This document shows, piece by piece, positions 2,630-25,445 of a DNA stretch of 47,299 nucleotides. Below the pieces are notes generated by a model. The model was not told the origin of the DNA. It did no database searches and saw only the letters and a list, made by a program, of their open reading frames with translations. The first letter of the stretch is position 1. The number at the start of each line of letters is the position of its first letter. Source of the stretch: a virus; the IMG/VR virus record IMGVR_UViG_3300008624_000021, positions 1 through 47,299 of that record; one strand, 5' to 3'. A program made the position numbers and the translations under genes.

Positions 2630-2637
2630 TATTTATT
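2630..2637 (-). promoter_or_regulatory. Near-consensus T4-type late promoter
   Basis: The minus strand reads AATAAATA, one mismatch from the T4 late octamer TATAAATA. The expected start about six bases downstream is near 2624. That would give an 11-nt leader holding exactly the GAGG ribosome-binding site of the coiled-coil gene. It lies in the short gap after the 717-aa fibre gene. Confidence 0.45.
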
Positions 2638-6557: not shown

Positions 6558-6559
6558 TA

Positions 6560-7177: not shown

Positions 7178-7178
7178 T

Positions 7179-7499
7179 TCAAACCTCATACTTATCACCA
7201 ATCACAGATGGTACTTTTACCACAACAACTGTACAATCTTCTAAAAATTCTGGTTCTGCTATTTCATTTTTTCTAATAACAAAAACATCACCAGAGGATA
7301 GTTTTTGGTCACAGATAATCATTTTACCAGCAATTAGTAAATTGTACTCATCCGATTCACGGTGGAAGTGTCGTGGCCAATCTTCTCCTTTTTTATGTAC
7401 TACTGAACCTATCTCAAAATCTTTTGTTCTCAGAACAGATGGTTCAAAATCACCAATAAACCATCCTCTCCAGAAATCACTCAACTTATAAACTTCCAT
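7179..7499 (-). CDS. Small cupin protein
   Basis: This 106-residue single-domain cupin has motif 1 at about 38-58 (H44-F-H46, D50/E51, then G58) and motif 2 around GDVFVI (69-74) and the following strand. The His-x-His and acidic residue suggest a bound metal. It starts at an ATG with GGAGG six nt upstream and overlaps the end of the nucleotidyltransferase gene by 14 nt. Small cupins next to sugar nucleotidyltransferases are often isomerases, epimerases or sugar-binding accessories in nucleotide-sugar synthesis. Which applies here cannot be told. A second cupin (25442-25780) pairs with a second nucleotidyltransferase on the other side of the giant fibre gene. Confidence 0.75.
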   Translation of the reverse strand: MEVYKLSDFWRGWFIGDFEPSVLRTKDFEIGSVVHKKGEDWPRHFHRESDEYNLLIAGKMIICDQKLSSGDVFVIRKNEIAEPEFLEDCTVVVVKVPSVIGDKYEV

Positions 7500-8205
7500 T
7501 ATATACCTCCAAAAATCTATTCAAATCATCAGGTGTTCCAACTGCATGATGTTGCTCTCTTGCAATATGATATACACCAATATGCAAACTGTCCACCAGA
7601 TAGTTATATGTAGGGCCAACATAATACTCACCATTTGGTGCAGTATCTTTATTTTCAATCATCATTTTTGCGGAATTAACAAAATCACTACCTCTTTTCC
7701 AATAATGAACTCCATTGAGAGATACATTACTAATAACTTCCTTTTCTCTGATCTCTAATACCCTACCACTTCGGTCAAGCCTGGCATAACTATTTTTAGG
7801 AGTATCAGATTCATAGGTAACAATGACACCATCCATTTTAGGGTTTCTGGCATAATACAAAAAATCATTGAAATCCCAAAATAATATTTGGTCACAATTT
7901 GCAATTAACAATTCTTCATTGAAATTTATATATTCCTTTGCCAATAAACATGAAGATGTAGGGCCATTAGTTACATTAATAATATCTATTATAATTGGAT
8001 TGTCACAAACGTTTCCTAAGACATTTCTGGTATCAGTATCAAGTTTTCGTGTTATAAAAATAAATTGGACATCCGTTATATTAAAGGATTCTATAGCCCT
8101 TTCAATCATAGTTTTCCCAGATACATTTATAAGAAATTTTGGAATATCATATCCTTCGTTCTTGAATCTTTGCCCTAACCCTGCCATTGGTATTAATATA
8201 TTCAT
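7486..8205 (-). CDS. Sugar-phosphate nucleotidyltransferase
   Basis: This 239-residue protein belongs to the NTP_transferase (RfbA/GlmU-like) superfamily. Residues 1-25 hold the nucleotide-binding signature IPMAGLGQRF...IPKFLI, with the lysine of PKF at 23, and residues 103-106 (NCDQ) give the metal-binding aspartate. It lacks the long C-terminal left-handed helix of bifunctional enzymes, so it is a stand-alone pyrophosphorylase. Such enzymes activate a sugar 1-phosphate with an NTP; the sugar and nucleotide are not deducible. GAGG lies six nt from the ATG. The gene is followed by overlapping cupin, methyltransferase and GDPD-like genes, which suggests one pathway. Confidence 0.8.
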   Translation of the reverse strand: MNILIPMAGLGQRFKNEGYDIPKFLINVSGKTMIERAIESFNITDVQFIFITRKLDTDTRNVLGNVCDNPIIIDIINVTNGPTSSCLLAKEYINFNEELLIANCDQILFWDFNDFLYYARNPKMDGVIVTYESDTPKNSYARLDRSGRVLEIREKEVISNVSLNGVHYWKRGSDFVNSAKMMIENKDTAPNGEYYVGPTYNYLVDSLHIGVYHIAREQHHAVGTPDDLNRFLEVYNGSL

Positions 8206-8222: not shown

Positions 8223-9464
8223 CTAAGAATAATAATCAACATTGAATAAAATAGAACTCCTTTCCTTTGATGCACACTCTATAAGTTCATCATTCACATA
8301 AACATGGTATCCCATCCAACTATCCGTTATAGGAACAGAAAATGTAATCGAACCATCAACTTCATAATTGTCATATTCATAAATCTGATCTGCAAAAACC
8401 TTCCACTTGAAATTATATGCTTCAACCTTTGTCATAGTACAATATAATTTATCCTCACAAGAAATAACACGAACCAGATCCTGTGTTGGTCGCCTTATAT
8501 AATAATCATTTTCTGGTTTCTTTAGTAGAATAGAATATTCAATAATTCTAATTATCTCATCAATTTCCCTATCGTTCAGTATATTATTATAAAGGGTGAA
8601 TATGTTACATGAAGTATAATCTCTGTTATACATTGGATATATATCTGAATGACAATCTTTCAATTGCCCCATTTCAGTATAAACTCTTGCCCATTTCTCG
8701 AAATAATCAACATCATTTTGACTTCCATGACTTTCATAATAACTACTACCATATGCATTATGACTATATATGGCAATCAATCTTGGTATCTTGCATAAAC
8801 TGGCAAAGTGCATAAAACCAGATTGTCCACCAATAAAAAGAGATGAATTTCCAACAACATAAAGTGCATCATACAGATTATCAGAAGTATATGTTCTGAC
8901 AGAAGCATTAGTAATCAATTCTGGCTTATCGGTGACAATCAACAATCTATCTCCACAAATATCAAAAAGTCTATCAATTAAATTATTGACAAATTCTTCA
9001 CCGTGATACCGAGTAACATTGTAGAAAAAATCATCTGTTAAAAACAATGGTGAAAAGACAAAATAACTACCCCAATCAAATTCTGGGCCACCATACAAAT
9101 CTTTATCTAACCTGATGTTAGGGATTACTATATCACCATATTTGTCTCTGACATATGTAGATGCTACATCAACATGCCCCGAATCATACATCCAAATATC
9201 ATCTTCAATTTCTATATCTGAGAATTCATCAAAGCATTCTTCAAATAAAATATGTGCCTTCATGTTACGATGTAATTCTTCAGTATATTCAAAATGTACA
9301 TATTTATGTTCAATTATTCGTTTATATTTCGCACAAACTGCCGTTCTGCATATATCACCAATTCGCATTGGGTATTTAATGATCTTATTATCATATGGTT
9401 TATTATCATTTTGTATATCCAACACATGATAATAGGGTTTTATTTGAATTTCATGTTTTTTCAT
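8223..9464 (-). CDS. Putative GT-B glycosyltransferase
   Basis: The open frame extends to a TTG at 9500, but a late promoter at 9504-9511 would start RNA at about 9498, so the ATG at 9464 (413 residues) is preferred; the ribosome-binding site is weak. The protein is soluble. Residues 212-223 (GGQSGFMHFASL), with the following IPRLIAIYSHN, match the sugar-nucleotide-binding C-lobe loop of GT9-like and related GT-B enzymes (G.SG..H.A). The N-lobe has YPMRIGDICRTAV (near 32-44), like the G.GD loop of heptosyltransferases. The last 80 residues look like an added beta-rich domain. It lies directly after the 385-aa BAHT-like gene and before the nucleotidyltransferase. The acceptor is unknown. Confidence 0.6.
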   Translation of the reverse strand: MKKHEIQIKPYYHVLDIQNDNKPYDNKIIKYPMRIGDICRTAVCAKYKRIIEHKYVHFEYTEELHRNMKAHILFEECFDEFSDIEIEDDIWMYDSGHVDVASTYVRDKYGDIVIPNIRLDKDLYGGPEFDWGSYFVFSPLFLTDDFFYNVTRYHGEEFVNNLIDRLFDICGDRLLIVTDKPELITNASVRTYTSDNLYDALYVVGNSSLFIGGQSGFMHFASLCKIPRLIAIYSHNAYGSSYYESHGSQNDVDYFEKWARVYTEMGQLKDCHSDIYPMYNRDYTSCNIFTLYNNILNDREIDEIIRIIEYSILLKKPENDYYIRRPTQDLVRVISCEDKLYCTMTKVEAYNFKWKVFADQIYEYDNYEVDGSITFSVPITDSWMGYHVYVNDELIECASKERSSILFNVDYYS

Positions 9465-9480
9465 CGTAAAAATCACTATC

Positions 9481-10638
9481 CTATATTTCGGTTTCCTCAA
9501 TCTTATTTATAACCATCTCTGGTGTTATCAAACGAGTACATTCAAAATCCTTTCGGTAGAAACACCCTGCCTGTAACTCGTAATTCCTCAATATGTTAGT
9601 ATCTTCAAGACACCCCCTACAGTAATTATCAGCAGAAAGACCAATTCTAGTCACATTATCTTGAAATGAAAATTCTTCTTCTACACTGCCAACTATTAAA
9701 AAGCAATACTTGTCTATAAAATTTGCCATCCATGAAAGACCGCTATCTAGCCCTACATAAAAATCAGAATTCTTCAGTGTGCCAAGTCTATGTAAAAATG
9801 AATACGATTCACCAGATAAATCAAATGTGTTACTAAGGTTAGACTTTTCCTGTGAAATAGAAACCATTGTATACCCCCTACCTACAAAATAATCAACCAA
9901 TTCTTGCCAACCATTTTCATGATGCCATTGTTTGCTAACCATAGATGCGAACTCGGAGAAACAAATATATGGTCTGGGTATACTTTCTTCTATATCTGGT
10001 ATCTCTTTGAGAGTAGGTTTCAATAGATGATTATCTGAGATCCCCAATAAATCCAACCACCGCTGAGTGTAAGGTTTTCTTCTGATAGTATTATTTCCGT
10101 GATCTACCCAAGTTGTGAAATGATAATCAATATTGGAAATGAAATCGTTTCCATCTTCTGACAAGTACAAAGTATCTTCATACTCCTTTGCGTGTGGAAT
10201 GATAGTAATAAAGGATAACTCATCTGTGATGGAATTGAAGAAATCATTCATCTTGTGTGTACTAACAAAAACATTCTTACATCCATGAACTTCTTTGAAC
10301 CTTCTAATTACGCTTACAATATTAAAAACATCACCAAACCCACCAGAATGAATATTTTGTTCGATACTAAATGCTACATTTTTATTAGTGAACGATACTT
10401 CATGAGTTTCATATAGAACACCATTTTCATACGATTTTACTACAACCTGTTCTTGTAATAAATTGAACACACGATATGATGCTAAAAAAGTTTTATCCTT
10501 TTTACTAGACCAAAAATGTTTCTTGGTAGAAAACTCAGACCCCTCTATCTCTAATGTGAAAAGTCTTTCTTCCCCATCATCTGGAACTAAATCGGCTACT
10601 AAAAATATACAATCTCTTTGAAATTTTAGTCTATACAT
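9481..10638 (-). CDS. BAHT-like protein O-heptosyltransferase, copy 2
   Basis: This 385-residue protein resembles autotransporter O-heptosyltransferases (TibC/BAHT, GT9 fold). Visible marks: an N-terminal beta domain (1-90), a SGGFGDVFN loop near 98-106, a WQELVDYFVGRGYTMVSIS segment, SGLSWMAN at 299-306, and the cysteine finger C340-x2-C343-x15-C359-x7-C367, comparable with the iron-binding finger of TibC. Known family members transfer heptose from ADP-heptose to serines of repetitive adhesins. The ATG overlaps the stop of the 3745-aa fibre gene by 8 nt, so the enzyme is translated together with its likely substrate. Its last codons contain a late promoter for the next gene. Family membership is fairly secure from motifs; donor and acceptor are inferred. 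Confidence 0.72.
   Translation of the reverse strand: MYRLKFQRDCIFLVADLVPDDGEERLFTLEIEGSEFSTKKHFWSSKKDKTFLASYRVFNLLQEQVVVKSYENGVLYETHEVSFTNKNVAFSIEQNIHSGGFGDVFNIVSVIRRFKEVHGCKNVFVSTHKMNDFFNSITDELSFITIIPHAKEYEDTLYLSEDGNDFISNIDYHFTTWVDHGNNTIRRKPYTQRWLDLLGISDNHLLKPTLKEIPDIEESIPRPYICFSEFASMVSKQWHHENGWQELVDYFVGRGYTMVSISQEKSNLSNTFDLSGESYSFLHRLGTLKNSDFYVGLDSGLSWMANFIDKYCFLIVGSVEEEFSFQDNVTRIGLSADNYCRGCLEDTNILRNYELQAGCFYRKDFECTRLITPEMVINKIEETEI
9504..9511 (-). promoter_or_regulatory. T4-type late promoter within coding sequence
   Basis: The minus strand reads a perfect TATAAATA, overlapping Val-Ile-Asn codons near the end of the 385-aa transferase gene. The predicted start near 9498 gives a 34-nt leader to the ATG at 9464. 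It can drive the glycosyltransferase, nucleotidyltransferase, cupin, methyltransferase and GDPD-like genes independently of the fibre. Confidence 0.6.
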
Positions 10639-13600
10639 TTCTTGGTTTCCCTAATATATCATATAAATTTTGAATTTCATTATCCAATGTATGCAAACCA
10701 GATAGTAAAACAGATATTAGTGCTAATCCCCTAACCTTCTTATAACCATCCACTCCATCATAAACCAATTCTGGATAGATCTGTTCGATTTGCTGTGCAA
10801 TAACTCCAAGTTGCTTTCCATGATATTCTGGTAGACCACCTTCAATTGCATCATGACCTAAATCCCAATTAAAAGCACTTGGAGCCAGTTTTCTTAATTT
10901 TTCTAAAGTTCCCGTCCAACCACTGATATTACTTTTCAATCTCTCGTCGGAAGTACCACCACCTTCACCAGACGAACCTGTTTGGCCTGATGCACCCGAT
11001 TGACCAGACGAACCTGTTTGGCCTGATGCACCCGATTGACCTGACGAACCTGTTTGTCCTGATGTACCTACTTGACCTGACGAACCTGTTTGTCCTGATG
11101 TACCTACTTGACCTGATGTACCTGTAATACCAGATGCACCAGAAGTACCTGTGATACCTGATTTACCTGTAATACCAGATGCACCAGAAGTACCTGTTTT
11201 ACCAGAAGTACCTGTGATACCTGACTGTCCTGTAACACCAGATAATCCTGTAACTCCAGAAACACCTCTGGGTGCTTTAGTAACAGCCACAGATGCTTCA
11301 ACAATTACAGTATCAGATGTATTATCAACTAGTCCATATTGTCTTGCCAACTGATTTAGAATTTTTGCCTTTAACGTAAATGAAGTAAAAGAAGATGACC
11401 AAGAACCACCACTAAAACTGTATACACCACTTGTATCAATAGAAACCGTAAGACCACTCGATGAACCAGATGCTGTTGCCCCAAAAGAACCACTACCAAC
11501 AGCAAATTGTACATCTGATTGTGTTCGTAAATCTGTTTTTCCTACAGTTACTAACATGAAACCACCAGAACCACCATAGGTCAAATCATTTGCACCACTT
11601 TCCGAACCATCCATACCAGTTCCATCTTCGTTAGTAGCTACTGTAGATTTAGGATTTGTTAGATATGCAACCGCATTACCTATGCCCTTTTTAGACTTGG
11701 CAATGGTAAATTTAGAACTAACTGATACTGTTTCTGAACTGGTTTCTGCCACTAACCCATATTTCTTAGCAGTCACATTCCCAATAACACAAATCAATTC
11801 AAATTCTTCTTTATCTGTATTCCAAGTATCACCTGATCCATTATCTTCTTTTATTCTATAAATTCCATTATCCCAAATCTCAATTCTCAAATCATTTTGA
11901 ACATGATTTACTGGACTATTACCTGTTGGTTCACCTATCAATGGTTTTGGATCTTCAGTAGAAGATGTTAATGATGTATAGGTAGGAGTAGCAGCGGTCT
12001 TTATCTTAAAATGTGTATCAGTTTCGAGACTAACAATAACATCACCAACAGTGGCAATCATCTGCCCCTGACTTGCATAACTACCTCTAAAATCAAAAGT
12101 AGTTCCATCTGGATCTCTATCACCATATGGATTAGTTGAGACTATTGTACTATCATTAGTCAAACGACCAACAGCAACACTCGCACCCTGTTTTGCTTTA
12201 CTGATCGTAAACTTTGCAGATACTGTAACTGTATCAGAACTACTTTGAGCCACTAACCCATATTTTTTGGCAGTGGTATTTCCAACTATTGCATTCAATT
12301 GAAATTCAGTTTCATCTTGATTCCACGCACTATCTTCTTTGATCTTATAGACACCATCATCATCTATCTGTAACGATAATCCATCTATCGTATGTTCAAT
12401 TGGATTTCCAGTAGCAGTTGTTTCATTTTGTGCATCATCTGTAATCTTAAAATGAACATCATTGGTTGTACTGATGGTAGTTTCACCAGCAACAACAGTC
12501 ATTGTACCCTGTTCTACATATGCAGATTTGAATGCCAAAGCAGTACCATCTGGTTGTAAAGTACCAGCACGATTTGTTGTTATTACAGTTGTATCATTGG
12601 TCAATCTACCATGAACAGTACTCGCACCCTGTTTACCTTTACTAATGGTAAATACTTTATCAATATATACTGAACCCTCAGCCCCACTATAATCGGAATC
12701 TACAATACTTTTAGTTATTGCGAAAGAATTAGGAATAGTTGCCCTTATTGTAAATTCTTCTGCATCTGAAGTCCAACTATTATATGTGTTGAGTCCATAT
12801 CCACCATTAGTCTGATGAATTTGTAATTTTAAACCATTTTTATCAGCAGAAACATGATAATCACCATCTGTACTTCCACCAACTATGGTATATGTAATAC
12901 CATTTGAATCATCATCCACCGAACCAGCAAAATAGACATTCATAGCACCATCAGCACTATCTTTCCATGTATCACCACCACCATTAAACGCAACACCATC
13001 AAATTGGGTAGTACCTGTAACATCCGTTGGCATTACCACACCATCATTAGTTAATTTTGCTTCGTATGTCTTTGCACCTTCTCTTGCTCTGGTAACATCA
13101 AGTACCTTTGATACTGAAAAATCTGCTGAACCTAATCCGTATTTTTGTGCTTCAGTTGCTTTAATGGTTGCAGTAATAATAAATTCTGTGTGGTCAACGG
13201 TAGTCGTCCAATTATTAGTACCAGTATGGGATATTAGATAGTATTGTTTTCCGTTATTACCAGCAACATAATTGGTATCTGCAACACCATTAGCACCACC
13301 ACTAGTAGTAAACAATAACTTCAAATTATCATTGTTAGTATTAACTGCAAATTTAACAACAGAACTAGGAACTAATGTGATTTCTCCACTATCACCCCTA
13401 ATAGAAATCTCTGCCTTACCCGAATATGACTCACCTGTTTCAGTGAAGTCAATTGGTGTTGAACCATCTATTTTATAATTACCCTTTCTGTTAGTAGAAA
13501 CTATAACTGGATCACGGGTAAGTCGTAAATCAACTCTTGCACCTACTTTATTTTTGCTGATGGTAAATTTCTTATCTATGGTTATAGCACTACTACCAGT

Positions 13601-16600
13601 AGTCAGACCCCAAAGTTTTGCCTGTGCATTTGTTATTGATGCTGTTAATGTAAATTCTTCTGTATCTGAATTCCAAATCTTATTGGTATTATTTTCATTG
13701 GCAAGAGAATATGCACCACTAGCACCATTTATTGTAATCGTCAATTGGCTATCTGATGTTGTTGTACCTGTAAATGTAACATCAGCATGACTTGATTGAT
13801 TCACTCCATTGACCAATACTCTAAAATCACCACCAGCAACATTATAATCTATATGACCTCCATTCAATGATTTCGTACCTTCTGGCCCTGTTACTACTGT
13901 CACTGGATCATTGGTCAATAAACCCTCAACAGTACTTTCACCTTTCTTAGATTTTGTTATAGTGTAGATTTTTTGTGCAAGAACATCTGAACCATCATTT
14001 GACAAACCCCAAATATTTGCTTGTGAACCAGCAATTTTAGCATAAAGGGTAAATTCTTCTGAATCGGTATTCCAAGTTGCACCAGAAAGGGTATATGCAC
14101 CAGTTGCAGCGTTAAGTGTAATGGTTAAATTATTATCAGTAGATGTTAAATCTCCAGAAGTTGCATAGGTAGTTCCATCCAATGAATAACTAACATTAGA
14201 ATCGGTATTTACTACACCATCCGTTCCAAACCCAGCTACAATGACATTAAACTTCCCACCAGCATTAGTATAATCTAGTGCCGATGTTCCATCTGGTGCT
14301 TTATCACCATTACTATTAGTTGGTATACTAACTGGATCATTAGTCAATGTAACTTCAAATGGTGCTTGACCTTCTCTTGCCTTACTAATAGTATAAGTCA
14401 AATCGACATTAACTGCACTACCATCAGAAGAAATTCCTTGTGATTCAGCATACGAACCAGCAATTATTGCCCGTACTATAAAATCAACTGAAGAACTTGA
14501 AGATGCCCATCCACCATTTTCTTCTAAGATGTAATTTCCATCAGTATCAGTAAAATCAAATTTCAACCCTGATATTGTTCTGTTATCTACATCATAGTCA
14601 TCATCACTCTGTTTGACTGCAAATGTCACACTAGCATTATCTTGTACTTCAACACCATCAATTACTACTTTGAATTGCCCAACTGCACTAGTTAAATCTA
14701 TTGCAGTTGTACCACCGCCAGGTGCTAGAGTACCAGCCGCATTAGTAGGTATTGAGACATTAGCATTAGTTAAATGACCACCAACTGTACCCAACCCCAT
14801 TTTTGCCTTTGCTACATCCAGAACCATATCCAAATTAACTGCACTGCTATCGTCATTTAATCCCAGAGTTTTTGCTTTAGCACCAGAAATAGTTGCTCTC
14901 AGTATGAATTCTTCAGTATCAGATGTCCATGCACTATTTTCCGTTAAAGTGTATACACCAGATGCTTCAACAATTGCAAGTTGCAATCCACTGATAGTTC
15001 TAGTTGCCCCGAATGAACCATTTGCTTGCTTAACTTTATAAGTAACATCACTAGTTATTTCAATTCCACCATAATAGGTTTTCATTTCACCTGTGCCAAT
15101 TGTACCAAGTGCTGTACCATTTGGTCTTTTTGCACCATCATTGGTAGTAGCAATTGCAATTGGATCTTTGGTTAATCGAACTACTGGAGTATTAAATCCC
15201 TTCCCTGCTTTAGTTAGAACCTGTGCTACCTTTCTAGTAGAAACTACACCTTTCAAATCGCAAATTTTGAGATTAAATTCAACTTTAACCGTATTGATAG
15301 TATTACTAATGGCACTGAAATCTCTCATTACTATAGAATCATTTCCTGTAACTGATGTATCTCTATCTTGGAAAGAACTTACGATATTAAGATTTTGTGT
15401 ATTGTTTGCCGAAACATGAGGGTCTAAAGCAGTTCCAACTTTCAACCCATGTGATGCTGTAATGGTAAGGGTATCCAGATAATACTGACCAGCAGTTAAT
15501 GTAGTTGTGGTTGTACCAGCAACGGTTGTATACTTATTTTTTGGTTCGAGATAAGTTGGCCCTTGTCTAACTGTGAGTTCTGTTGCTGTACCAGTTAGTT
15601 CACTAGTCTGTACAACATTATCATCCCCTGCCTTGATAGTAAAGGTTGGTGTGGTAAGTTGAATCTCCATACCATCTTCACCCTCAATCAGTTTAGTCAA
15701 TGCAATCTGAGATGATGCCTTTTCTTGATTATCAGACGTATCACCAGAATCTAATGTTATCTGTGCATCCCCACCACTAATATTGGAACCATGAATTTTT
15801 AATACATCACCATCATCATAACCAGCACCACCTTGATTGACAGTAATACCTGTAATTGCACCGCTAGAATTAACTGCGGTAATATTAACGGTCAGACCTG
15901 TTCCATTTCCTGTACCACTAACCTCAGAAGTTTCTACATCAGATTTTACCCTATAACCAGAACCAGCAGTTGAAATAGATGGTGTTCCAGTTACTACCCC
16001 ATCATCAATCTGTTTTGCCGTAATAACAGCAGATGCTCGATAATTTCCAGCAGAAATATTTGAGGATTCGGTAAATTTATCTCGATGGGCCCATGCTTTG
16101 ATGACATTTCCACCAGATTTATAATCTGTGGTATGAGTAGTGCCATCACCAGTATAATATGATATTGTACCAGTTGGTTGTGATGTACCAAATGCCAAAC
16201 CAATACCAGTAGAACTACCAGTTAATGCCGTTCCTGTTTGATCTTCTGATGTGGTTGACCACTGCACCCTAGTTTTACTAGAACTTGCAGCTGCTTCGTC
16301 TGTTGTTGAAATTATCTTAGGTGTAATTGCAATCCATTCTGGTGTAACTGCATCATTTGAACCTGTAGTATCTTTTTTCTCAGTGTAAACAAGTGCTTCT
16401 GCACTTAGTGAAATATCAGTTGCATCTGAACCTAAACGAGATTTGGTATAGGAAAGAGATCTGGAAAGAGATTCGATTGCCGTGTCTTCTCCAAATTTCC
16501 TGACTTTAATAGTCATTGGTACAGACGCACTATCAGCAGACATCGTAACTTTTCCACCAGAAGTTGCTGGTGTTATAGTAACTATATTGGTATTGTTAGC

Positions 16601-19600
16601 ATTACCCTTTACCGACATATCATCAAATTGAGTTGTTACATCAGCATTTACACTAGCAATACTTGCAGTCTTACCACTCTGAACTATTGTATATGAACCA
16701 TTTTTAGTTGTTGTATTGAGTGGATTTCCACTTCCATCAGGAACAACATAAGTTAATTCCCTAGCACCCTGTAAAACTTTAATAGTTGATTGCCCTGCCG
16801 ATGCCTCTGAATCATCAACCTTTCCATTTGCATCCGATTGGAAAGTATGTGCTTCATTTGATATGATGGCTGTGATAGCATCCGAACCTTCTGTTACATT
16901 GTAAATGGTGTAATCATCAGAAAAGGTTTCTCCACCACTGGTAACTGTTGCTGTTATAGTTGCTGTTTTTAGAAATTTGGAATCTGCACCCGAACCATGA
17001 GTGAATTCCTTCATAGGTACATAAACAACTTTTGTGCTATTTGAACCTAATGCTGGATATGCATTCTGTGTAACAGGAGTACCAGATGCACCCGAACTTG
17101 GATACAAAGAAACAAAATCATCGCCTGGGTCAGTGTTTGTCAATGTTCTGCCATCAGTATCCCATTTAATCTTAGCATCATCAACTGCCGAAATTTTTAT
17201 TTGTCCACCACCATCACCAGCAGTTGGAATGGAAACTATATCATTAGCAGTATATCCACTACCCTCTTTTCCAGCAACTAATGCCACTGTCTCTAAAGCA
17301 TTATTACTACTAGAATCAACTGCCGAAATCGTAACATGCATACCCGTTCCAGTACCACCCGAAACTGCATATTCTGTCGCACCTGTACTATATTCAGACC
17401 CTGCCTGAGTATGTACAACCAAAGTCTTGGGTACACCATCTAAATTCTGAGTATTAACTGTTAATTGTATTTCTTGAGTAGACGTACTGGCATCTGGATT
17501 GTCAGTTTCATCTGGAACATCATTAGGTTTTTTCGTACTAGCAAATACAAAAGTTTGATGATCTCCCGTCAAACGAACTGTCTGTGAAAGAATACCAACA
17601 TCACCTTTAATAGATTTAGTAAAGGATTGAATTCGATTAATGGTTTTGGTTTCACCATTACCCCTTGTGATGACAATAGGATAGGTGATAGATGCAAAAT
17701 CAGCCACCATTGCTGATGGTGTACCAGAAACATATTTAACTGCACCATTGGTAGCAGTAGGTGAACCACTTTTAGTTATATTGGTATCAATAATATCACC
17801 AATCTTCCATGTACCAGCAGTATCGGTAATTTTAACTTGTCCACCACCAGCACCTACATCAATAATATCACCAACTTTATAACCACTACCCTTAGTGTGT
17901 ACTGTTGCGGTTGCTGTAATAGTGGTCTGACCAGAACCCAAACTTATAGTAAATAAATCATCATCTGTTCTGGAAGTATCAACATTTTCAGTTGAGATGT
18001 TAGTTTGCCCCGAACTATAACCCGAACCAGCAGCCAATACCTCAAAATCATACACTCGACCTGATATAGCAGTGGCATTATATTCTACCTGTACATTACC
18101 CTCGTATACTTCGATGTCTGTACTACCACCGTTATAAGTTGTTACATTACCATTTTCCCCTGCTCGGAATGTGTGATTCTCATTAGTCAGTACAGTAGTT
18201 ATTGCATCTTTGGCATCTGTTGTACCAATAACTGTAATAGAATCAGTAGCAATAACTGGATTTCCTGTCACAAGAGCAATTTGTGCAGTTCCACCAGTAA
18301 TAGTAACATTTTCACCATTGACATAATCAATACCAGCATTATTAACTGTCACCTCTGTAATAGCACCTGTACTTGAATTTGTAGTCAAATTAACCGTTAG
18401 TCCAGTACCAGTACCACCCGTAACACTAACATTGGTTCCGTTCTTATATCCTGTATTGGTTCCAGTGATAGAACCAAACCCTGTTACTACATCATTCTGA
18501 TAACTATCATAAACATTGACGGCGAAAACCCGTTTAATAAATCTAGTTGCCTTTGAAGTAACAGATTCGGTAATAGTATCACCATCAGTCTCACTAATAT
18601 CAAATATTTTTCCAACTGCCAATGTCGCAACATCTGATTCTGTACCATCTTCCGTCTGTGTTATTTCGTAATAGGCATCTTTAACTAAATTAGTTGCCTT
18701 TGCTGTTAGTGTAACCGAACTCGGTGTTGGTTTATTATTGGCCGAATCATAGGCAATTTGATAGTCATCCGAGGTCAACTTAACTGTAACAGGTGCTTTG
18801 GCAGTAGTTGCCTTTGAATAGGTAATTGTTCGTTGGAAATTGGTATTACTTTCACCATCACTAGACTGAACTGTAATGTCAATATCTACTGAAGCATTAT
18901 CTGCAAATATATTGAGTCTATCACCACCATCTTTAGGTTTAATTGAAATTTTGTCATTAGCATAATCAAAAACTAACGTTTCAATCTCCATATTATTTAA
19001 ATTGGATGCAGTTGGTTGGGCAATATACCATGAACCTTTGGTCAAAGAACCAGCACTAGCAACATCCAATTTAGTTATACCCTCATAGACAGTTACATCA
19101 CAAGTACCCGCTGCCTGTTGTTGGTCATCAACCTTACCCGTAGAATCAACAGGGAATGTATGATTTTCGTTGGATAGTAATATAGTATATGCGTCTTTAC
19201 CTTCCTTCAGTTTATATAAAGTATAGGTATCATCTAAGGTACTAGTTCCACCATCAGCATCAGTAGCAAATTCTGCTTCGACACTAACAGTAGCAGTTTT
19301 TAAGAAATCCAACCCAATCGTTAGTGTAGCATTTCCACCACCACCAGAAATGGTAACTGTTTCACCATGAACATATCCTGTTCCTTTATTACTTGGGTCA
19401 ACAGTAACATTTTTTACCACACCATCATCAGTAATATTAACTAAAACCTTCAAACCAGTACCAGTACCACCCGTAGCATTAACTGATGTTGTAGATGAAC
19501 TATATCCAGTACCAGCATTTAAAATAGTAACTTTATCAACTGCATGGTCGGGAACAAAATTCCTGACATCTAATACTCTCTTGTTATCATTAGCAATTGT

Positions 19601-21868
19601 ATTGTTAGGATCGGCCAACCTACTTAAACCAGAAACAGTTGCTACATTAGTACCATCATCCTTCTTGCCAGAAAGACTCCAAGTTAGTTTAGGTGCAGTA
19701 GAATCAGCAACAGCATTTATTGTTTTTCCATCAACTACATCATTTGCTTGGAAACTGGTAGCAGTGAAAACATTTGACCCCGTAGGTGTTGCATACCATG
19801 ACGTACCAGAACCTTGATAAACCTCAAATGTTGTAGTATTAGTTCCACTTCTTGTAGTAGTAAAAGTATCACCATCTGCCCATGTTGCAGATGCACTCAA
19901 AGTCAATACTTTTAATTTTTTCTTATTGGAAAACTTACCTAAATTATCATGAAATGCCGTAATCTGTATTTCTTGGGATGTCGGTGTCGGAAGTTCCTTT
20001 TTATCAAAAGTGTAAATCTGAGAATCTGATGCTACGGTAAACACTTTACCCGTAGAACCAGCCATCAATCTAGTCAAAGATTGAAATTTCTCCAGAACTG
20101 TCTGACGACCATCTGTTCTTTGAACGGTAATAGTAAAATTGACATTTGCCAAATCTGCCGACATCGCAGTAGCATCATTAAGTTTTGCTCTATCAACTGC
20201 ACCACTATCATCAACTTCTAACGTACCAGAAGTTAGACCCGTATCCGTCTTGGAAATGGTATATTTCCCATCGGCAATCGTACCATCAGTAAATGCTAAT
20301 TGGTCATTTCCTTCATAAATTTCTATAAATGTACCAGAACCTGTGAAGGAATGAACAGAACCATTTTCATCTGCTTGAAAGGCATGATTTTCATTAGTAA
20401 CTATAACAGTTAAACTATCTGTACCACCAAGTGTACCAAATACACTTATGGAATCTCTAGCCAATATATCAGTATCAGTTTCACCTTCGTATACCTTTGA
20501 GGTATAAGTTCTGCGTAAGAATCTATTGGTAGGTGAAGTTATTGATTGGGTATGTGTAGTATTTTTTGCTTTAACTGATTTGGTATGGGTTGATAAAGCA
20601 CCAAGACTGACCCGTGTTCCAGAATTAGTGCCATCCGTAATAGTACCTGTTAAAGTACCTACTAGGTCAGTAATCTTAAAGGTATTGCTATCTGTTCTAA
20701 CATAAACAACAGCAGAATTAGTACCACTAGTAATCTTTGTACCTTCTGCCCAATTCGGGCCACCCGAAACAACTAAATCTCTTATTGGTGCAGTTTCATC
20801 AAATTGACTATATGCACTTTCAAATCCATGATTAGTTGCGGTTAAAATGAAAGTGGATGGATCTGCCGATAAACCAGCTGGGTCGTACCCAATCTGATAA
20901 TCATCGACTTCAAGAATTGTATTTCGTGAGACTTTAGTTTTTGTGTAGGTTACGGAACGGTCAAGTGGAATGCTACTACCATCTGCTTTATAAACTGTGA
21001 TAGGAAAGGATACAACAGCAGAATCATATGCCTTTGCCATTGCTGTAGGTGTAAAAACACGTTGGTCACTAACAGTAGATGCTGATAAAGTAATTGCACC
21101 AGCAGGGGAAATTACTGGATCACCAACAGTATACGTATTATCTACACCACCAGTAGTGGCAAATTTTGCTTGTGTGGCTCCAACATACAAACGAACTTCA
21201 GTTGAACCATCGGCAAGAGTATCGGTGACTGTACCTTCAGAAGTGGCAAGAAAGGAATGGTTGCCTTTGGTGAGAAATACACTAATAGCATCTTCACCAG
21301 CAGAAACGTAAGAGATTACTATTTCATCATCATCAACAAGAGTTAGGTTAGATGCTAATTCTTCAACTTCAAAACGATAGTGTGTTCCAGAATGACCCCC
21401 ACCTGTAACTTTAGTAGAATCGGTGATAGAAAATATTTTAAATTTGCTGGCATCATCCTTTTTGTATACTCGGAATTGTCCAATAATAGTAGCAGAAACA
21501 GTCGAAATTTTATCAAGAAAATTACTAAGATCTACGTTGTATCTATCTTCTTGGTCTAAATACAGATAATGCGTACCACCAAATGCTAAGTCACTTGTAC
21601 CAAGACTTGCATCTGTTGGATAAGTATCACTACCACCCGAACTTATGGCCGTACCATGCCAAAAATATTCAAATGTTACCCCACCTAGAGGTATCTTAAC
21701 GTTTTTTAGATCTGCTCTACCTAGTTCAAAACCACCATCTGTCGAACCATCATGTATCCTAACAGATTCTTCACCAGAATCCGTTTGCATTGTCAATTCA
21801 CCTTCTTGACCAGTATAAGCAAGGTTCTGCTGTTTTGTACCTCGTTTGATCTTAAAGGTTATTGCCAT
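10631..21868 (-). CDS. Giant tail fibre with collagen stalk and S74 chaperone
   Basis: The protein has 3745 residues, among the largest expected in any T4-like genome. Residues 1-60 (FKIKRGT, GELTMQTD, RIHDGSTDGG) match the Mtd_N-type fibre-docking domain. About 60-2220 is a series of long beta units with recurring TNENHTF, VYEG, MSAD and SLTYTK segments, interspersed with GSGY..GD/SGGTGTGL motifs. About 2220-3534 holds nine related units with LTND-V, TEEF and YGL-landmarks. Residues 3535-3639 are 35 Gly-X-Y triplets without proline. Residues 3640-3745 are an S74 intramolecular chaperone: SDERLKSNI at the self-cleavage site, then LGVIAQQIEQIYPELV. Ser3640 and Lys3645 are the predicted dyad. 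Mature fibre would therefore end in the collagen stalk. BAHT-like genes abut both ends. Confidence 0.9.
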   Translation of the reverse strand: MAITFKIKRGTKQQNLAYTGQEGELTMQTDSGEESVRIHDGSTDGGFELGRADLKNVKIPLGGVTFEYFWHGTAISSGGSDTYPTDASLGTSDLAFGGTHYLYLDQEDRYNVDLSNFLDKISTVSATIIGQFRVYKKDDASKFKIFSITDSTKVTGGGHSGTHYRFEVEELASNLTLVDDDEIVISYVSAGEDAISVFLTKGNHSFLATSEGTVTDTLADGSTEVRLYVGATQAKFATTGGVDNTYTVGDPVISPAGAITLSASTVSDQRVFTPTAMAKAYDSAVVSFPITVYKADGSSIPLDRSVTYTKTKVSRNTILEVDDYQIGYDPAGLSADPSTFILTATNHGFESAYSQFDETAPIRDLVVSGGPNWAEGTKITSGTNSAVVYVRTDSNTFKITDLVGTLTGTITDGTNSGTRVSLGALSTHTKSVKAKNTTHTQSITSPTNRFLRRTYTSKVYEGETDTDILARDSISVFGTLGGTDSLTVIVTNENHAFQADENGSVHSFTGSGTFIEIYEGNDQLAFTDGTIADGKYTISKTDTGLTSGTLEVDDSGAVDRAKLNDATAMSADLANVNFTITVQRTDGRQTVLEKFQSLTRLMAGSTGKVFTVASDSQIYTFDKKELPTPTSQEIQITAFHDNLGKFSNKKKLKVLTLSASATWADGDTFTTTRSGTNTTTFEVYQGSGTSWYATPTGSNVFTATSFQANDVVDGKTINAVADSTAPKLTWSLSGKKDDGTNVATVSGLSRLADPNNTIANDNKRVLDVRNFVPDHAVDKVTILNAGTGYSSSTTSVNATGGTGTGLKVLVNITDDGVVKNVTVDPSNKGTGYVHGETVTISGGGGNATLTIGLDFLKTATVSVEAEFATDADGGTSTLDDTYTLYKLKEGKDAYTILLSNENHTFPVDSTGKVDDQQQAAGTCDVTVYEGITKLDVASAGSLTKGSWYIAQPTASNLNNMEIETLVFDYANDKISIKPKDGGDRLNIFADNASVDIDITVQSSDGESNTNFQRTITYSKATTAKAPVTVKLTSDDYQIAYDSANNKPTPSSVTLTAKATNLVKDAYYEITQTEDGTESDVATLAVGKIFDISETDGDTITESVTSKATRFIKRVFAVNVYDSYQNDVVTGFGSITGTNTGYKNGTNVSVTGGTGTGLTVNLTTNSSTGAITEVTVNNAGIDYVNGENVTITGGTAQIALVTGNPVIATDSITVIGTTDAKDAITTVLTNENHTFRAGENGNVTTYNGGSTDIEVYEGNVQVEYNATAISGRVYDFEVLAAGSGYSSGQTNISTENVDTSRTDDDLFTISLGSGQTTITATATVHTKGSGYKVGDIIDVGAGGGQVKITDTAGTWKIGDIIDTNITKSGSPTATNGAVKYVSGTPSAMVADFASITYPIVITRGNGETKTINRIQSFTKSIKGDVGILSQTVRLTGDHQTFVFASTKKPNDVPDETDNPDASTSTQEIQLTVNTQNLDGVPKTLVVHTQAGSEYSTGATEYAVSGGTGTGMHVTISAVDSSSNNALETVALVAGKEGSGYTANDIVSIPTAGDGGGQIKISAVDDAKIKWDTDGRTLTNTDPGDDFVSLYPSSGASGTPVTQNAYPALGSNSTKVVYVPMKEFTHGSGADSKFLKTATITATVTSGGETFSDDYTIYNVTEGSDAITAIISNEAHTFQSDANGKVDDSEASAGQSTIKVLQGARELTYVVPDGSGNPLNTTTKNGSYTIVQSGKTASIASVNADVTTQFDDMSVKGNANNTNIVTITPATSGGKVTMSADSASVPMTIKVRKFGEDTAIESLSRSLSYTKSRLGSDATDISLSAEALVYTEKKDTTGSNDAVTPEWIAITPKIISTTDEAAASSSKTRVQWSTTSEDQTGTALTGSSTGIGLAFGTSQPTGTISYYTGDGTTHTTDYKSGGNVIKAWAHRDKFTESSNISAGNYRASAVITAKQIDDGVVTGTPSISTAGSGYRVKSDVETSEVSGTGNGTGLTVNITAVNSSGAITGITVNQGGAGYDDGDVLKIHGSNISGGDAQITLDSGDTSDNQEKASSQIALTKLIEGEDGMEIQLTTPTFTIKAGDDNVVQTSELTGTATELTVRQGPTYLEPKNKYTTVAGTTTTTLTAGQYYLDTLTITASHGLKVGTALDPHVSANNTQNLNIVSSFQDRDTSVTGNDSIVMRDFSAISNTINTVKVEFNLKICDLKGVVSTRKVAQVLTKAGKGFNTPVVRLTKDPIAIATTNDGAKRPNGTALGTIGTGEMKTYYGGIEITSDVTYKVKQANGSFGATRTISGLQLAIVEASGVYTLTENSAWTSDTEEFILRATISGAKAKTLGLNDDSSAVNLDMVLDVAKAKMGLGTVGGHLTNANVSIPTNAAGTLAPGGGTTAIDLTSAVGQFKVVIDGVEVQDNASVTFAVKQSDDDYDVDNRTISGLKFDFTDTDGNYILEENGGWASSSSSVDFIVRAIIAGSYAESQGISSDGSAVNVDLTYTISKAREGQAPFEVTLTNDPVSIPTNSNGDKAPDGTSALDYTNAGGKFNVIVAGFGTDGVVNTDSNVSYSLDGTTYATSGDLTSTDNNLTITLNAATGAYTLSGATWNTDSEEFTLYAKIAGSQANIWGLSNDGSDVLAQKIYTITKSKKGESTVEGLLTNDPVTVVTGPEGTKSLNGGHIDYNVAGGDFRVLVNGVNQSSHADVTFTGTTTSDSQLTITINGASGAYSLANENNTNKIWNSDTEEFTLTASITNAQAKLWGLTTGSSAITIDKKFTISKNKVGARVDLRLTRDPVIVSTNRKGNYKIDGSTPIDFTETGESYSGKAEISIRGDSGEITLVPSSVVKFAVNTNNDNLKLLFTTSGGANGVADTNYVAGNNGKQYYLISHTGTNNWTTTVDHTEFIITATIKATEAQKYGLGSADFSVSKVLDVTRAREGAKTYEAKLTNDGVVMPTDVTGTTQFDGVAFNGGGDTWKDSADGAMNVYFAGSVDDDSNGITYTIVGGSTDGDYHVSADKNGLKLQIHQTNGGYGLNTYNSWTSDAEEFTIRATIPNSFAITKSIVDSDYSGAEGSVYIDKVFTISKGKQGASTVHGRLTNDTTVITTNRAGTLQPDGTALAFKSAYVEQGTMTVVAGETTISTTNDVHFKITDDAQNETTATGNPIEHTIDGLSLQIDDDGVYKIKEDSAWNQDETEFQLNAIVGNTTAKKYGLVAQSSSDTVTVSAKFTISKAKQGASVAVGRLTNDSTIVSTNPYGDRDPDGTTFDFRGSYASQGQMIATVGDVIVSLETDTHFKIKTAATPTYTSLTSSTEDPKPLIGEPTGNSPVNHVQNDLRIEIWDNGIYRIKEDNGSGDTWNTDKEEFELICVIGNVTAKKYGLVAETSSETVSVSSKFTIAKSKKGIGNAVAYLTNPKSTVATNEDGTGMDGSESGANDLTYGGSGGFMLVTVGKTDLRTQSDVQFAVGSGSFGATASGSSSGLTVSIDTSGVYSFSGGSWSSSFTSFTLKAKILNQLARQYGLVDNTSDTVIVEASVAVTKAPRGVSGVTGLSGVTGQSGITGTSGKTGTSGASGITGKSGITGTSGASGITGTSGQVGTSGQTGSSGQVGTSGQTGSSGQSGASGQTGSSGQSGASGQTGSSGEGGGTSDERLKSNISGWTGTLEKLRKLAPSAFNWDLGHDAIEGGLPEYHGKQLGVIAQQIEQIYPELVYDGVDGYKKVRGLALISVLLSGLHTLDNEIQNLYDILGKPRNV
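10952..11266 (-). repeat. Gly-X-Y collagen-like stalk, 35 triplets
   Basis: Every third residue is Gly from residue 3535 to 3639 of the giant fibre. The Y position is almost always Ser or Thr and proline is absent. Triplets include GVT, GIT, GTS, GAS, GQT and GSS. The stalk ends immediately before the predicted S74 cleavage serine. Confidence 0.92.
10977..11120. repeat. 36-bp tandem repeats in the collagen stalk
   Basis: Four copies start at 10977, 11013, 11049 and 11085, each 36 bp (12 residues). The first two differ at one base. The third and fourth are identical except at their last four bases. A second, 45-bp spaced repeat (11121 and 11166) follows. The period is a multiple of nine, so copy-number change would keep both frame and Gly-X-Y register. 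Confidence 0.9.
11270..15205 (-). repeat. Nine tandem beta-domains of the giant fibre
   Basis: Nine consecutive protein-level units of about 120-150 residues share an opening LTND-V-PTN-G-PDG segment, a central V-F-K stretch, then W-SDTEEFTL-A-I, A-YGL and FTISK-K-G. DNA identity between units is low, so they are old duplications. Spacing and landmarks suggest strung Ig-like domains. The unit borders given are approximate. Confidence 0.8.
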
Positions 21869-21877
21869 GTATTATTC

Positions 21878-23110
21878 CTATATTTTTTTCATTTCCTTAT
21901 CTTCACCAATATAATTCTCGATTGAATCTATAACTTGACTAACGGAAATTGATTTACTACAAATAAAATCCATTTGTCTAGGACAATACTCATAGTGAAA
22001 TTCGGCCTTATCTAAACTTCCATCGTTAAAACATCCCCTACAACCAGCATTATTATTTTCAATAATAGTTGTATTTTCTTTAAATTCTGTCCAACCCCAA
22101 CTCCAAGAATTTATACGAAAAACATGAACTCCACAAGCATTTGCTAACCAAGAAAGACCACTAGCAACAGTTACAACAAATTCACACCCCAATATTTGCT
22201 CTATTCTATTCTCAATTGAATAATCATCCCCAGAAAGGTCAACAATATTCTCTAAATTGCATTCTTCTTTACTTATCCACCAAACTTCATAACCAATATT
22301 AACTAAATAATCAACCAAAGTTTGCCATTTATCTATTTCACAATCATAACTAATCCACATTTTTGCCTTCATTGTTCCACATGGTGCAATACATACATAT
22401 TTACTTTGATGATCTATTGCTTCATAATAATTTTCCAATTTTAATCTCGAATACGGTTTATATTCCATATTCAATTGATTTAGGATATTTATTCCCTGTG
22501 GGTGTACAAAATCCTTAAACTCCATGAGTCCTATTCCAATTGATATATCAAAAGAAATATCTGATATTTCATCATCAACATCCCTTATTATATATTTCCC
22601 CCCTTCCAGAACAATACTTTCCAACTCCCCTGTGTCTGGATTATAGATAGGTATTGGATTATACTCAGAAAAAACGTTCAACCACAAACTATATAATCTA
22701 GCCTGTATAGTAATAGTAGAAAATAAATGACCCTTCTGACCAAGAAAATCCAAAACATATGACTGAAAATTGATAGCATCCCCCAACTGACCGTTGGAGA
22801 AACGAATTAACAGATTCTTATCGGAATTTTCAAGATCTATAGAAGTTTCAAAAATATTATTTTCAATCAATGAAGTATTAACTAATCTTCCATCAGGTGC
22901 GAATTGATGTTCAATGGAAGAAACTGTTATGTGACCGATCTCCGACCTATCCCAAATGTCAGAATATACAATATAGTAGCTTCCTTCTTCAATCAATTGC
23001 ACCAAAGAAGTTCCATCATCAGAAAAAATTTCTATCATTAAATCATCATCGTGTAATTTGGTAATCTTTATCCCACAGTATGTATAAGTTACATCATAAT
23101 ACTCACCCAT
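21878..23110 (-). CDS. BAHT-like protein O-heptosyltransferase, copy 1
   Basis: This 410-residue paralogue of the 385-aa enzyme has an N-terminal beta domain (1-95), FSNGQLGDAINFQ near 105 (G.GD loop), VCIAPCGTMKAKMW, WQTLVDYLVNIGYEVWWIS, VDLSGDDYSIENRI, SGLSWLAN at 317-324 and the finger C357-x2-C360-x15-C376-x7-C384. This ordered set is diagnostic for the autotransporter heptosyltransferase type, whose members add heptose to adhesin serines. It is closer to that pattern than the second copy. It ends nine bases before the ATG of the giant fibre, which uses an AGGA overlapping this gene's stop. Its own ribosome-binding site is AGAGGG. Co-expression with the fibre is thus built in. Confidence 0.78.
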   Translation of the reverse strand: MGEYYDVTYTYCGIKITKLHDDDLMIEIFSDDGTSLVQLIEEGSYYIVYSDIWDRSEIGHITVSSIEHQFAPDGRLVNTSLIENNIFETSIDLENSDKNLLIRFSNGQLGDAINFQSYVLDFLGQKGHLFSTITIQARLYSLWLNVFSEYNPIPIYNPDTGELESIVLEGGKYIIRDVDDEISDISFDISIGIGLMEFKDFVHPQGINILNQLNMEYKPYSRLKLENYYEAIDHQSKYVCIAPCGTMKAKMWISYDCEIDKWQTLVDYLVNIGYEVWWISKEECNLENIVDLSGDDYSIENRIEQILGCEFVVTVASGLSWLANACGVHVFRINSWSWGWTEFKENTTIIENNNAGCRGCFNDGSLDKAEFHYEYCPRQMDFICSKSISVSQVIDSIENYIGEDKEMKKI

Positions 23111-23322: not shown

Positions 23323-24036
23323 CTAATTTTTACCTTTTAGTAAAGTTAATGCGTTAAAATTCTCCCCCACGAAATACTTTGCTTCATGAAAAGGAGCTCC
23401 TTCTTTCGATTCATTTCCTATATGTTGCACCAAACTAGGTGCATGTACACATAATGTATTGCTACCTCTACCCCTCTTAACAATTCCTTTCTCGTACCAC
23501 CCACATTCCAAACTCATTGCAATATCAAATGGTTCATTAGTTATATGTTTACACTTATTTATCTTCTCCACCACCCCACGTCTAAATGCCACCAAACAAA
23601 TACCATAATGAGTTTCCCATCCCTTTCTATACACATTATTTATGTTGGTATCTTTAATCAAATTGGGAGATTCTTCTGCATTATAGAAATTTATTGCTTC
23701 CCAACTTTCTAATGAGTTCATGATTACGACAACATATGGATACCAATTTTTACAAACCAAAATATCATCCTCTAACCTAATAAAATCCTCACCTAAAACA
23801 GCATCCATCTTTGCAATTCCTTCATGTAATTGTAACCTACCAGTATTAGATTTATGTAATCTCAAACCATAACTTAGACATAAATATTCAACTTGGGCCA
23901 ATGATTCCTTGGTACTACCACAATCAAAAACATGTATCTTACTACACCAATCAAACACCCCCGACTTCTCTAATGATTTAAGTGTTCTAAGTAAATATTC
24001 TGGTCTATCTAAAGTCTGTATTGCAATAGGTATCAC
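23323..24036 (-). CDS. GT-A (GT2-like) glycosyltransferase
   Basis: This 237-residue protein begins with MIPIAIQTLDRPEYLLRTLKSL, the classic opening of GT2-like enzymes, then HVFDCGS and a metal-binding acidic cluster E89-D90-D91 in RLEDDILVCKNWYP. A GWETHYGICLVAFRR segment and a late His (LVQHIGNES) fit the acceptor half. There is no membrane helix, so it is soluble. The start is a GTG whose GTGA overlaps the stop of the nucleotidyltransferase-kinase fusion by four bases. It probably uses the activated sugar made there, or extends the first sugar laid down by the BAHT-like enzymes. Donor and acceptor are unknown. Confidence 0.75.
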   Translation of the reverse strand: MIPIAIQTLDRPEYLLRTLKSLEKSGVFDWCSKIHVFDCGSTKESLAQVEYLCLSYGLRLHKSNTGRLQLHEGIAKMDAVLGEDFIRLEDDILVCKNWYPYVVVIMNSLESWEAINFYNAEESPNLIKDTNINNVYRKGWETHYGICLVAFRRGVVEKINKCKHITNEPFDIAMSLECGWYEKGIVKRGRGSNTLCVHAPSLVQHIGNESKEGAPFHEAKYFVGENFNALTLLKGKN

Positions 24037-25445
24037 GTTTCCATTCCTTTGATATAAAAGGCCAATACCAACATTGGATTATATAAAAAATACCCTGTTG
24101 CCGATAACCAAATGGTTTTTAACATGGCATTCATGCAGTCTTTGCTAATATCATATCTCTCCAATGCCCAATCCATAAACCATAATACCTTTGTAGTATT
24201 ATCATATCTTCCATGTTCAATTTCCCACACACCACCATTCTTTGAAATTTTGAACTCCCCTCGTTTAATATGCTCAAAACCCATTATAGAATAAAACATC
24301 TTAGCAATATCATATCTAGGATCACCATAAAAAACACCTTTGGGATCTATCACATATATATTATTCCCCAAAAACATATTAGACAAAGTTAAATCATGAT
24401 GAACCCATGTATAATATTTAGGAAAACCGATACGACCATAAATCCCATTGAAGAAATCGGATATGTTAAAATCTACAATACTATTGATAACCTGTTCTGA
24501 ATCCAAAACCCGTTTAACTGGTTTACTATAATACATATCATAAATTTCTGACTTTACTATTGGACGTTCACCAACATGTAGATCATCTAAGAAATTCGGA
24601 AGTTGCTTATCCCAAAAATCATCATACCAAGTTCCTATCGTAAGTGGCCATCCTTTACACTTCCCCATTATAAGAGAATTTCCCGTCCATTGCACTGGAT
24701 CTGGTAAATATGGTTTCAAACTTTCTGGTGCATTTCTATACCAATTATATTCGTCCTCAACCGATTCCTTTACTATCATCGGTGATTTAATCACCACATC
24801 TTCTATTATCTTAACATCATATTTAAGGGTTGTTAGATCATCATTAGCACCATTATCCAAAAAATCCTGTTCTGTTCCCAATGAAATCACATCAGCCCGA
24901 ATGATATTAACCACTTCATTAGAAAAATTCTCTAATATACCTTCGTGCGTTTCATCCAATTCTGGCATTTCGTCGAAATAATAAAACCCAAACAATCCAT
25001 CCTTATCACTATCACCCTTCATAATCTTGCCGTCAATCACTGAATATCTACAATCAATATCTGCAATCGCAAAGGTAGTGCCATCTAAAGATTCATAAAC
25101 ATCTTTAAAATTAGATTCATAAATGAAATCTGCCCAACTAACACAAACCTGTTCACCAACTAAACCAGCACTACGCAAAAGGTGTGCCGTACCTCTTGGA
25201 TGATCCTGTATGTGAAAACTCAACCAATCAGGATTTTTATAATAATCCTCCAACCACCCCTTTAATAACATTCCACGTCTGCAATCATTAACTGCTACCA
25301 CAATATTATTACTATATTTATTGTAAGTTTCAAGTAAATGACCAATTATGGGAAAACCCTTATAAGGATATAGTGGTTTGGGCAATAAATCAAAATGATT
25401 GTTCATTCTCGTACCAAAACCAGCAGCTGCTATAAAAAACTTCAT
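24033..25445 (-). CDS. Nucleotidyltransferase fused to APH-fold kinase
   Basis: This 470-residue protein carries two enzymes. Residues 1 to about 200 are an NTP_transferase domain (IAAAGFGTRM, then LPKPLYPYKGFPIIGH; WADFIY supplies the acidic residue). Residues about 230-470 are an aminoglycoside-phosphotransferase/choline-kinase-like domain with the catalytic loop HHDLTLSN (349-356) and the metal-binding D367 of VIDPKG, then YDIAKMF. The order kinase plus pyrophosphorylase recalls AmgK/MurU and LicA/LicC partnerships, here in one chain. The predicted product is an NDP-activated sugar or CDP-alcohol from an unphosphorylated precursor. It overlaps its cupin neighbour by ATGA. The residue boundaries are approximate and the substrate is open. 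Confidence 0.78.
   Translation of the reverse strand: MKFFIAAAGFGTRMNNHFDLLPKPLYPYKGFPIIGHLLETYNKYSNNIVVAVNDCRRGMLLKGWLEDYYKNPDWLSFHIQDHPRGTAHLLRSAGLVGEQVCVSWADFIYESNFKDVYESLDGTTFAIADIDCRYSVIDGKIMKGDSDKDGLFGFYYFDEMPELDETHEGILENFSNEVVNIIRADVISLGTEQDFLDNGANDDLTTLKYDVKIIEDVVIKSPMIVKESVEDEYNWYRNAPESLKPYLPDPVQWTGNSLIMGKCKGWPLTIGTWYDDFWDKQLPNFLDDLHVGERPIVKSEIYDMYYSKPVKRVLDSEQVINSIVDFNISDFFNGIYGRIGFPKYYTWVHHDLTLSNMFLGNNIYVIDPKGVFYGDPRYDIAKMFYSIMGFEHIKRGEFKISKNGGVWEIEHGRYDNTTKVLWFMDWALERYDISKDCMNAMLKTIWLSATGYFLYNPMLVLAFYIKGMET

Follow-up and report, generated by a model that had tools for sequence, protein, structure and literature searches.

Phages that carry relatives of the protein O-glycosyltransferase TibC probably glycosylate their own fibres, because hundreds of aquatic phages and some bacteria pair such an enzyme with Ser/Thr-rich collagen-like proteins. 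Here we analyse IMG/VR record IMGVR_UViG_3300008624_000021, a stretch of 47,299 bases from a T4-like phage (a marine virus that infects bacteria), which we refer to as the window. The window encodes two putative TibC-like protein O-glycosyltransferases, BAHT-A (385 aa, 9481..10638) and BAHT-B (410 aa, 21878..23110), on either side of a giant fibre of 3745 aa (10631..21868); all of the features between 6560 and 32609 that we describe are on the minus strand. The start of BAHT-A overlaps the stop of the fibre gene by 8 nt, and the stop of BAHT-B lies 9 nt from the fibre's start. An earlier interpretation of the DNA letters without database searches (the sequence-only reading) had described two open reading frames (ORFs) that abut both ends of the fibre gene, the 8-nt overlap, and a motif set that the two share, and all of this was borne out.

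It is very likely, from sequence and predicted fold, that BAHT-A and BAHT-B are TibC-like iron-finger enzymes. Both match TIGR04414 with strong E values (1e-29 and 103.7 bits for BAHT-A; 1.1e-25 and 90.5 bits for BAHT-B), if under its equivalog cut-off of 200 bits, so we describe the pair as divergent relatives of this family. Matches to the Pfam family GT9 (PF01075, with a cut-off of 22 bits) are weak: 18.8 bits for BAHT-A, which is under the cut-off, and 22.8 bits for BAHT-B, which is over it. When we compared the two sequences to the PDB, chains of TibC were the only protein matched (E = 4e-12 for BAHT-A and 3e-12 for BAHT-B). In searches with the predicted structures, TibC was the best fold for both, with GT9/WaaC behind: E = 4e-19 and a TM score of 0.70 over the full length for BAHT-A, and E = 2.6e-13 and a TM score of about 0.55 over the catalytic part only for BAHT-B. 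So the BAHT-type identity that the sequence-only reading had proposed agrees with both kinds of evidence. Since TibC surpasses them in both sequence and fold comparisons, we rejected plain GT9 or lipopolysaccharide (LPS) heptosyltransferases as an identity for the two. The two enzymes are 25% identical to each other (E = 5e-24). Single-sequence searches found no close viral relatives of BAHT-B and just two matches, at 29%, for BAHT-A.

The functional residues point the same way. Asp110, Lys230, Arg286, and Trp305 of TibC are required for its activity (PMC4358343), and their counterparts are kept in both BAHT-A and BAHT-B, with the catalytic Asp at D103 in BAHT-A and at D111 in BAHT-B; the counterpart of Thr226 is Ser in BAHT-A and Thr in BAHT-B. 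The four cysteines of the finger, which in TibC (residues 339, 342, 358, and 370) hold a ferric ion (PMC4358343), are also kept in both. The sequence-only reading took a spacing of x2, x15, x7 to be that of the autotransporter enzymes. The four cysteines are indeed spaced this way in the window, but TibC itself has x2, x15, x11.

What might these enzymes modify? The fibre has an Mtd_N domain at its N-terminus, a long repetitive shaft, a collagen-like segment (residues 3535-3633), and a Peptidase_S74 chaperone (residues 3640-3703); the matches to PF18454, PF01391, and PF13884 are all above cut-off. The collagen-like segment (10970..11266; 49.2 bits for PF01391 versus a cut-off of 27.2, E = 4.5e-13) has 33 G-x-y triplets, with Ser or Thr at the y position in 31 of them and no proline at all. 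Across the x and y positions of the segment, the share of Ser and Thr is 62%. The sequence-only reading had expected an adhesin-like acceptor, but the AIDA/TIGR04415 strand-loop-strand repeats have no match in the fibre or in the other structural proteins that we searched. An AIDA-like acceptor is therefore improbable, and the Ser/Thr-rich collagen-like segment is a better candidate. We think it likely, given the comparative genomics, that BAHT-A and BAHT-B have an acceptor of some kind within their own fibre. With somewhat less confidence, we favour the view that they O-glycosylate this fibre with the collagen-like segment as the main acceptor.

Alternatively, the acceptor could be the long repetitive shaft (with its TNDPV...TN..G..DGT repeats) rather than the collagen-like segment, and each enzyme may serve a separate part of the fibre. 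The shaft takes up the greater share of the 3745 residues, Ser and Thr together make up 24% of the whole fibre, two diverged enzymes flank the one fibre, and TibC's own targets are repetitive beta structures (PMC4358343). On the other hand, the strand-loop-strand repeats of such targets were not matched in the fibre, a Ser+Thr content of 24% is ordinary for this phage (20-27% in its other structural proteins), and relatives of the enzymes track collagen-like repeats. So we consider the shaft to be an unlikely main target.

The association with collagen-like repeats is clearest in other viral records. Collagen repeats are present in 27 of the 30 enzyme-encoding records that we examined whole and in 0 of the 16 T4-like records that we anchored on gp6. 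If we count by ORF instead, then 50 of 84 enzyme loci have collagen repeats, as compared to 0 of 80 gp6 loci; if we count clusters at 70% identity, then 23 of 31 do. In 11 long records, the distance between the enzyme and a collagen repeat never exceeds 10.5 kb (combined P = 7e-4). As an independent sampling, we fetched viral records by the DNA patterns of two types of collagen, regardless of whether the enzyme was there, and we kept records of at least 20 kb with a genuine in-frame G-x-y run of at least 8. One type is rich in Ser/Thr and almost without proline, and the other is rich in Pro and charged residues. The enzyme is present in 20 of 42 records of the Ser/Thr type and in 0 of 35 of the Pro/charged type (Fisher P = 5e-7; the pattern was picked after the enzyme loci had been seen, and we knew 2 of the 42 contigs beforehand). 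Larger and smaller records give the same picture: 13/15 versus 0/5 for those of at least 60 kb and 7/27 versus 0/30 for those below 60 kb. As a control, GT2 glycosyltransferases show no difference between the two types (9/42 versus 4/35). GT9 is not a clean control because many of its loci also carry the enzyme, and FkbM, as a control query, had too few matches.

The window is not an isolated case among phages. A profile scan of IMG/VR identified at least 568 contigs that encode a relative, and all 30 of the viral records that we examined whole have a match to TIGR04414 above the 200-bit cut-off, with scores that reach 333 bits. Of 50,697 deposited phages, just four have a relative, namely Microcystis phage Mel-JY01 and three uncultured huge phages. 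We did not find any published work, in the open literature, on TIGR04414-type enzymes in phages or on their acting on collagen. In some of the relatives, the enzyme is a domain within a larger glycosyltransferase protein, and some phages carry two copies. (At two loci, L005 9719-11786 and L034 9608-12391, there are two neighbouring BAHT-like genes, and the second is shorter and lacks the N-terminal part.) Other glycosyltransferases, FkbM methyltransferases, and sugar-modifying enzymes are abundant nearby. Because we chose the phage rows of our alignment by the motifs around the finger cysteines and Trp305, the invariance of those residues is partly by construction; Asp110 and Lys230 played no part in the selection. 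In Mel-JY01 (L007, PP395634.1), a coding sequence that is annotated as methyltransferase FkbM contains the enzyme as its C-terminal part. Also, this record has a plus-strand ORF of about 1788 codons, with (GTSGSSG)n repeats, that is missing from the annotation and runs across the record ends (187678-190001, which is the end of the record, and 1-3052). Annotated minus-strand coding sequences (1-651 and 739-2298) lie over this ORF.

Bacteria provide a second line of evidence. The closest bacterial relatives are from gammaproteobacterial metagenome-assembled genomes, in which the enzyme's gene adjoins small lipoproteins with (GTSGSSG)n repeats and acidic tails (L438, L439, L441, L444, L446, L451, and L453). 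In six of the seven gammaproteobacterial genomes (2-6 Mb), all of the genome's matches to (G-[ST]-S)5 adjoin the enzyme gene, and in one genome they flank it. The seventh, L438, has no such match and has interrupted repeats beside the enzyme gene. In a member of the Schekmanbacteria (L475), which belongs to a different phylum and has an enzyme from the same clade, the sole (G-[ST]-S)5 repeat in a genome of 9.2 Mb and the enzyme are 5.8 kb apart. In a further 22 control genomes, which with few exceptions belong to the autotransporter-linked clade, either there were no (G-[ST]-S)5 matches or the matches were mostly DNA micro-repeats, and the matches that were checked were outside of the enzyme loci. 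An exception is Methylomagnum (L504), whose enzyme is within the phage clade and whose genome has no match to (G-[ST]-S)5. In our tree, the autotransporter-linked enzymes group in one clade with a support of 100, and a second clade, with a support of 97, comprises the phage enzymes and those linked to (GSS)n lipoproteins. At the position of TibC's Pro300, most of the phage enzymes and the bacterial ones that are (GSS)n-linked have Gly, those of the autotransporter clade have Ser, and the window's pair has Asp/Ala. This variation is a possible donor switch.

We propose that BAHT-A and BAHT-B attach O-glycans to Ser and Thr residues of the fibre while it is being synthesized in the infected cell. 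The main acceptor would be the proline-free (G-x-S/T)33 segment just ahead of the C-terminal chaperone, and the Ser/Thr-rich shaft might be modified too. If they work as TibC does, they would take ADP-heptose from the host as donor, and they would presumably assemble into an oligomer, as in the dodecamer of BAHT enzymes. The nearby genes for nucleotidyltransferase/kinase, GT9, GT-A-like, cupin, and methyltransferase proteins may make or elongate the glycan. Heptose itself is an even bet: HldE-like genes are rare in the relatives and the counterpart of Pro300 differs, so the sugar may well be another. We also considered whether the phages might make ADP-heptose themselves and rejected this, as HldE domain II is matched in just 4 of the 30 relatives, and weakly. 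Because proline is absent from the phage collagen, we hypothesize that it needs help from a glycan, and that a sugar on Thr or Ser at the Y position could stabilise a triple helix. There is a precedent in the proline-poor cuticle collagen of Riftia, which is stabilised by Thr-linked sugars (Mann 1996 and Bann 2000, as cited in PMC10141479). The glycan might make the fibre stiffer, protect it, or change its binding. More tentatively, and leaning slightly towards doubt, we suggest that a clade of iron-finger O-glycosyltransferases in phages and some bacteria is specialised for collagen-like proteins of the proline-free (Gly-Ser/Thr-Ser)n kind, with the sugar standing in for proline or hydroxyproline in stiffening virion fibres and cell lipoproteins, and that the window's pair is a diverged form of this clade.

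Several observations weigh against our interpretation. Besides the scores below the TIGR04414 cut-off, the last finger loop of the window's pair is 4 residues shorter than TibC's, and the counterpart of Pro300, which is the donor-selectivity residue, is Asp/Ala. The finger region has a pLDDT below 50 in the predicted structures, whose mean pLDDT is 73 for BAHT-A and 61 for BAHT-B; the N-terminus of BAHT-A, where TibC has its beta-barrel, is also of low confidence. Because of the poorly modelled finger, the overlay on TibC that the sequence-only reading had recommended bears out only part of what was hoped for. Also, the relatives have weak HldE-like genes or none, and the collagen-like part is just 99 of the fibre's 3745 residues. 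BAHT-A and BAHT-B are on very long branches of the tree and their placement is unsure; they may act on other acceptors. Since they are far from the main phage clade, the properties of that clade are a strong lead for them and no more. Finally, the viral records in the comparison of Ser/Thr and Pro/charged collagen are related to each other rather than independent. This contrast may also be due in part to the type of host, because, to our knowledge, Gram-positive hosts lack ADP-heptose.

The genomic setting suggests another explanation. The nearest counterparts of this phage's gp6 among deposited phages belong to Pelagibacter phage HTVC008M (38%) and Methylophilales phage Melnitz (37%). Like VrlC of HTVC008M, a structural protein of the window (26823..32609; DUF4815, E = 2e-36) is placed after gp6 and the wedge genes and opens the host-recognition cluster. 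The island with BAHT-A and BAHT-B comes after the wedge genes and this VrlC-position gene, which is where pelagimyophages have a host-recognition cluster of fibres mixed with glycosyltransferases (PMC7029224). On one strand, the island's order is a canonical, WaaC-like GT9 glycosyltransferase (25773..26819; PF01075, 40.1 bits; heptosyltransferase I, E = 6e-13), a cupin (25442..25780; Cupin_2, E = 4e-10), a nucleotidyltransferase fused to an APH-like kinase (24033..25445; PF12804 and PF01636; phrog_4098, E = 5e-28; weakly similar to HddC), a possible GT-A glycosyltransferase (23323..24036; a weak match to MGAT4, E = 0.11, and sequence inspection), an ORF of 62 aa, BAHT-B, the giant fibre, and BAHT-A. 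The island continues directly after BAHT-A with a weakly glycosyltransferase-like protein (8223..9500; TIGR04372 at E = 0.025 only, and no match in Pfam), a sugar-phosphate nucleotidyltransferase-like protein (7486..8205; NTP_transf_3 above cut-off; phrog_3980, E = 1e-62), a cupin-like protein (7179..7499; a weak match to Cupin_2, E = 0.013), a methyltransferase-like protein (6560..7201; Methyltransf_24, E = 1.5e-4), and others. The sets of nucleotidyltransferase and cupin on both sides of the fibre (24033-25445 and 7486-8205) resemble two activated-sugar pathways. At 6093-6605, the N-terminus resembles a fragment of a glycerophosphodiester phosphodiesterase (ISHRGN...), without support from Pfam, and among the baseplate genes, 41491-42543 weakly matches the kinase-like Zeta_toxin (E = 5e-5).

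The glycosyltransferases of such clusters have been taken to modify the O-chain of the host (PMC7029224), and there is a canonical WaaC-like GT9 in the same island. So, during infection, BAHT-A and BAHT-B might modify the host's surface glycans (the O-chain or core of LPS), which could, for instance, block superinfection. But they match a protein O-heptosyltransferase, TibC, far better than they match the LPS heptosyltransferases, and the genomes of phages and, independently, those of bacteria link their clade to (G-S/T-S)n proteins, while GT2 has no such link. We view this explanation as rather improbable. It is more improbable by far that the two are fast-evolving or decaying passengers of a hypervariable island, with no specific substrate in the virion. 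Islands of this kind do turn over quickly (PMC7029224), and the pair's branches are very long, but both ORFs are open, their catalytic and finger residues are intact, and they are translationally coupled to the fibre.

Many phages have collagen-like fibres, and the literature that we found has no account of how proline-free ones are stabilised or modified. If phages do glycosylate these fibres, then the pairing of enzyme and substrate across hundreds of phages, and also in bacteria, would amount to a dedicated phage system for protein O-glycosylation. Also, some of the glycosyltransferases of host-recognition islands, which have hitherto been read as modifiers of host LPS, would gain a new role, and there would be a source of genetically simple glycosylated collagen. 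Microcystis phage Mel-JY01, which was deposited with a named host, allows a direct test.

How does the window's pair compare to known systems? With the BAHT enzymes TibC and AAH (TIGR04414; PDB 4RAP and 4RB4; PMC4358343), it shares the GT-B fold (as predicted), the catalytic Asp, the Lys, Arg, and Trp of the sugar site, and the four cysteines of the finger, as well as a location beside a large repetitive surface protein. It differs in being encoded by a phage, in scoring under the curated cut-off, and in its finger loop (x7 instead of x11). Also, the neighbour is a collagen-like phage fibre rather than an autotransporter, and two diverged copies flank the one fibre. Mimivirus glycosylates its own collagen-like protein, as we predict for the window's fibre, but it is described as using a lysyl hydroxylase/glycosyltransferase from another enzyme family, which acts on hydroxylysine in a eukaryotic host (PMC3243560, as cited in PMC8968730). 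In glycosylation of the BclA type, a collagen-like protein on a prokaryotic surface also receives O-glycans, as again we predict for the fibre here; the proteins in that case are from Bacillus spores, and the portions of PMC8968730 on which we rely do not mention a TibC-type enzyme. Finally, the host-recognition cluster of pelagimyophages is at the same genome position, after VrlC, and also has tail fibres among glycosyltransferases. In that cluster, however, the glycosyltransferases were read as modifiers of the host's O-chain, and no protein O-glycosyltransferase was recognised (PMC7029224).
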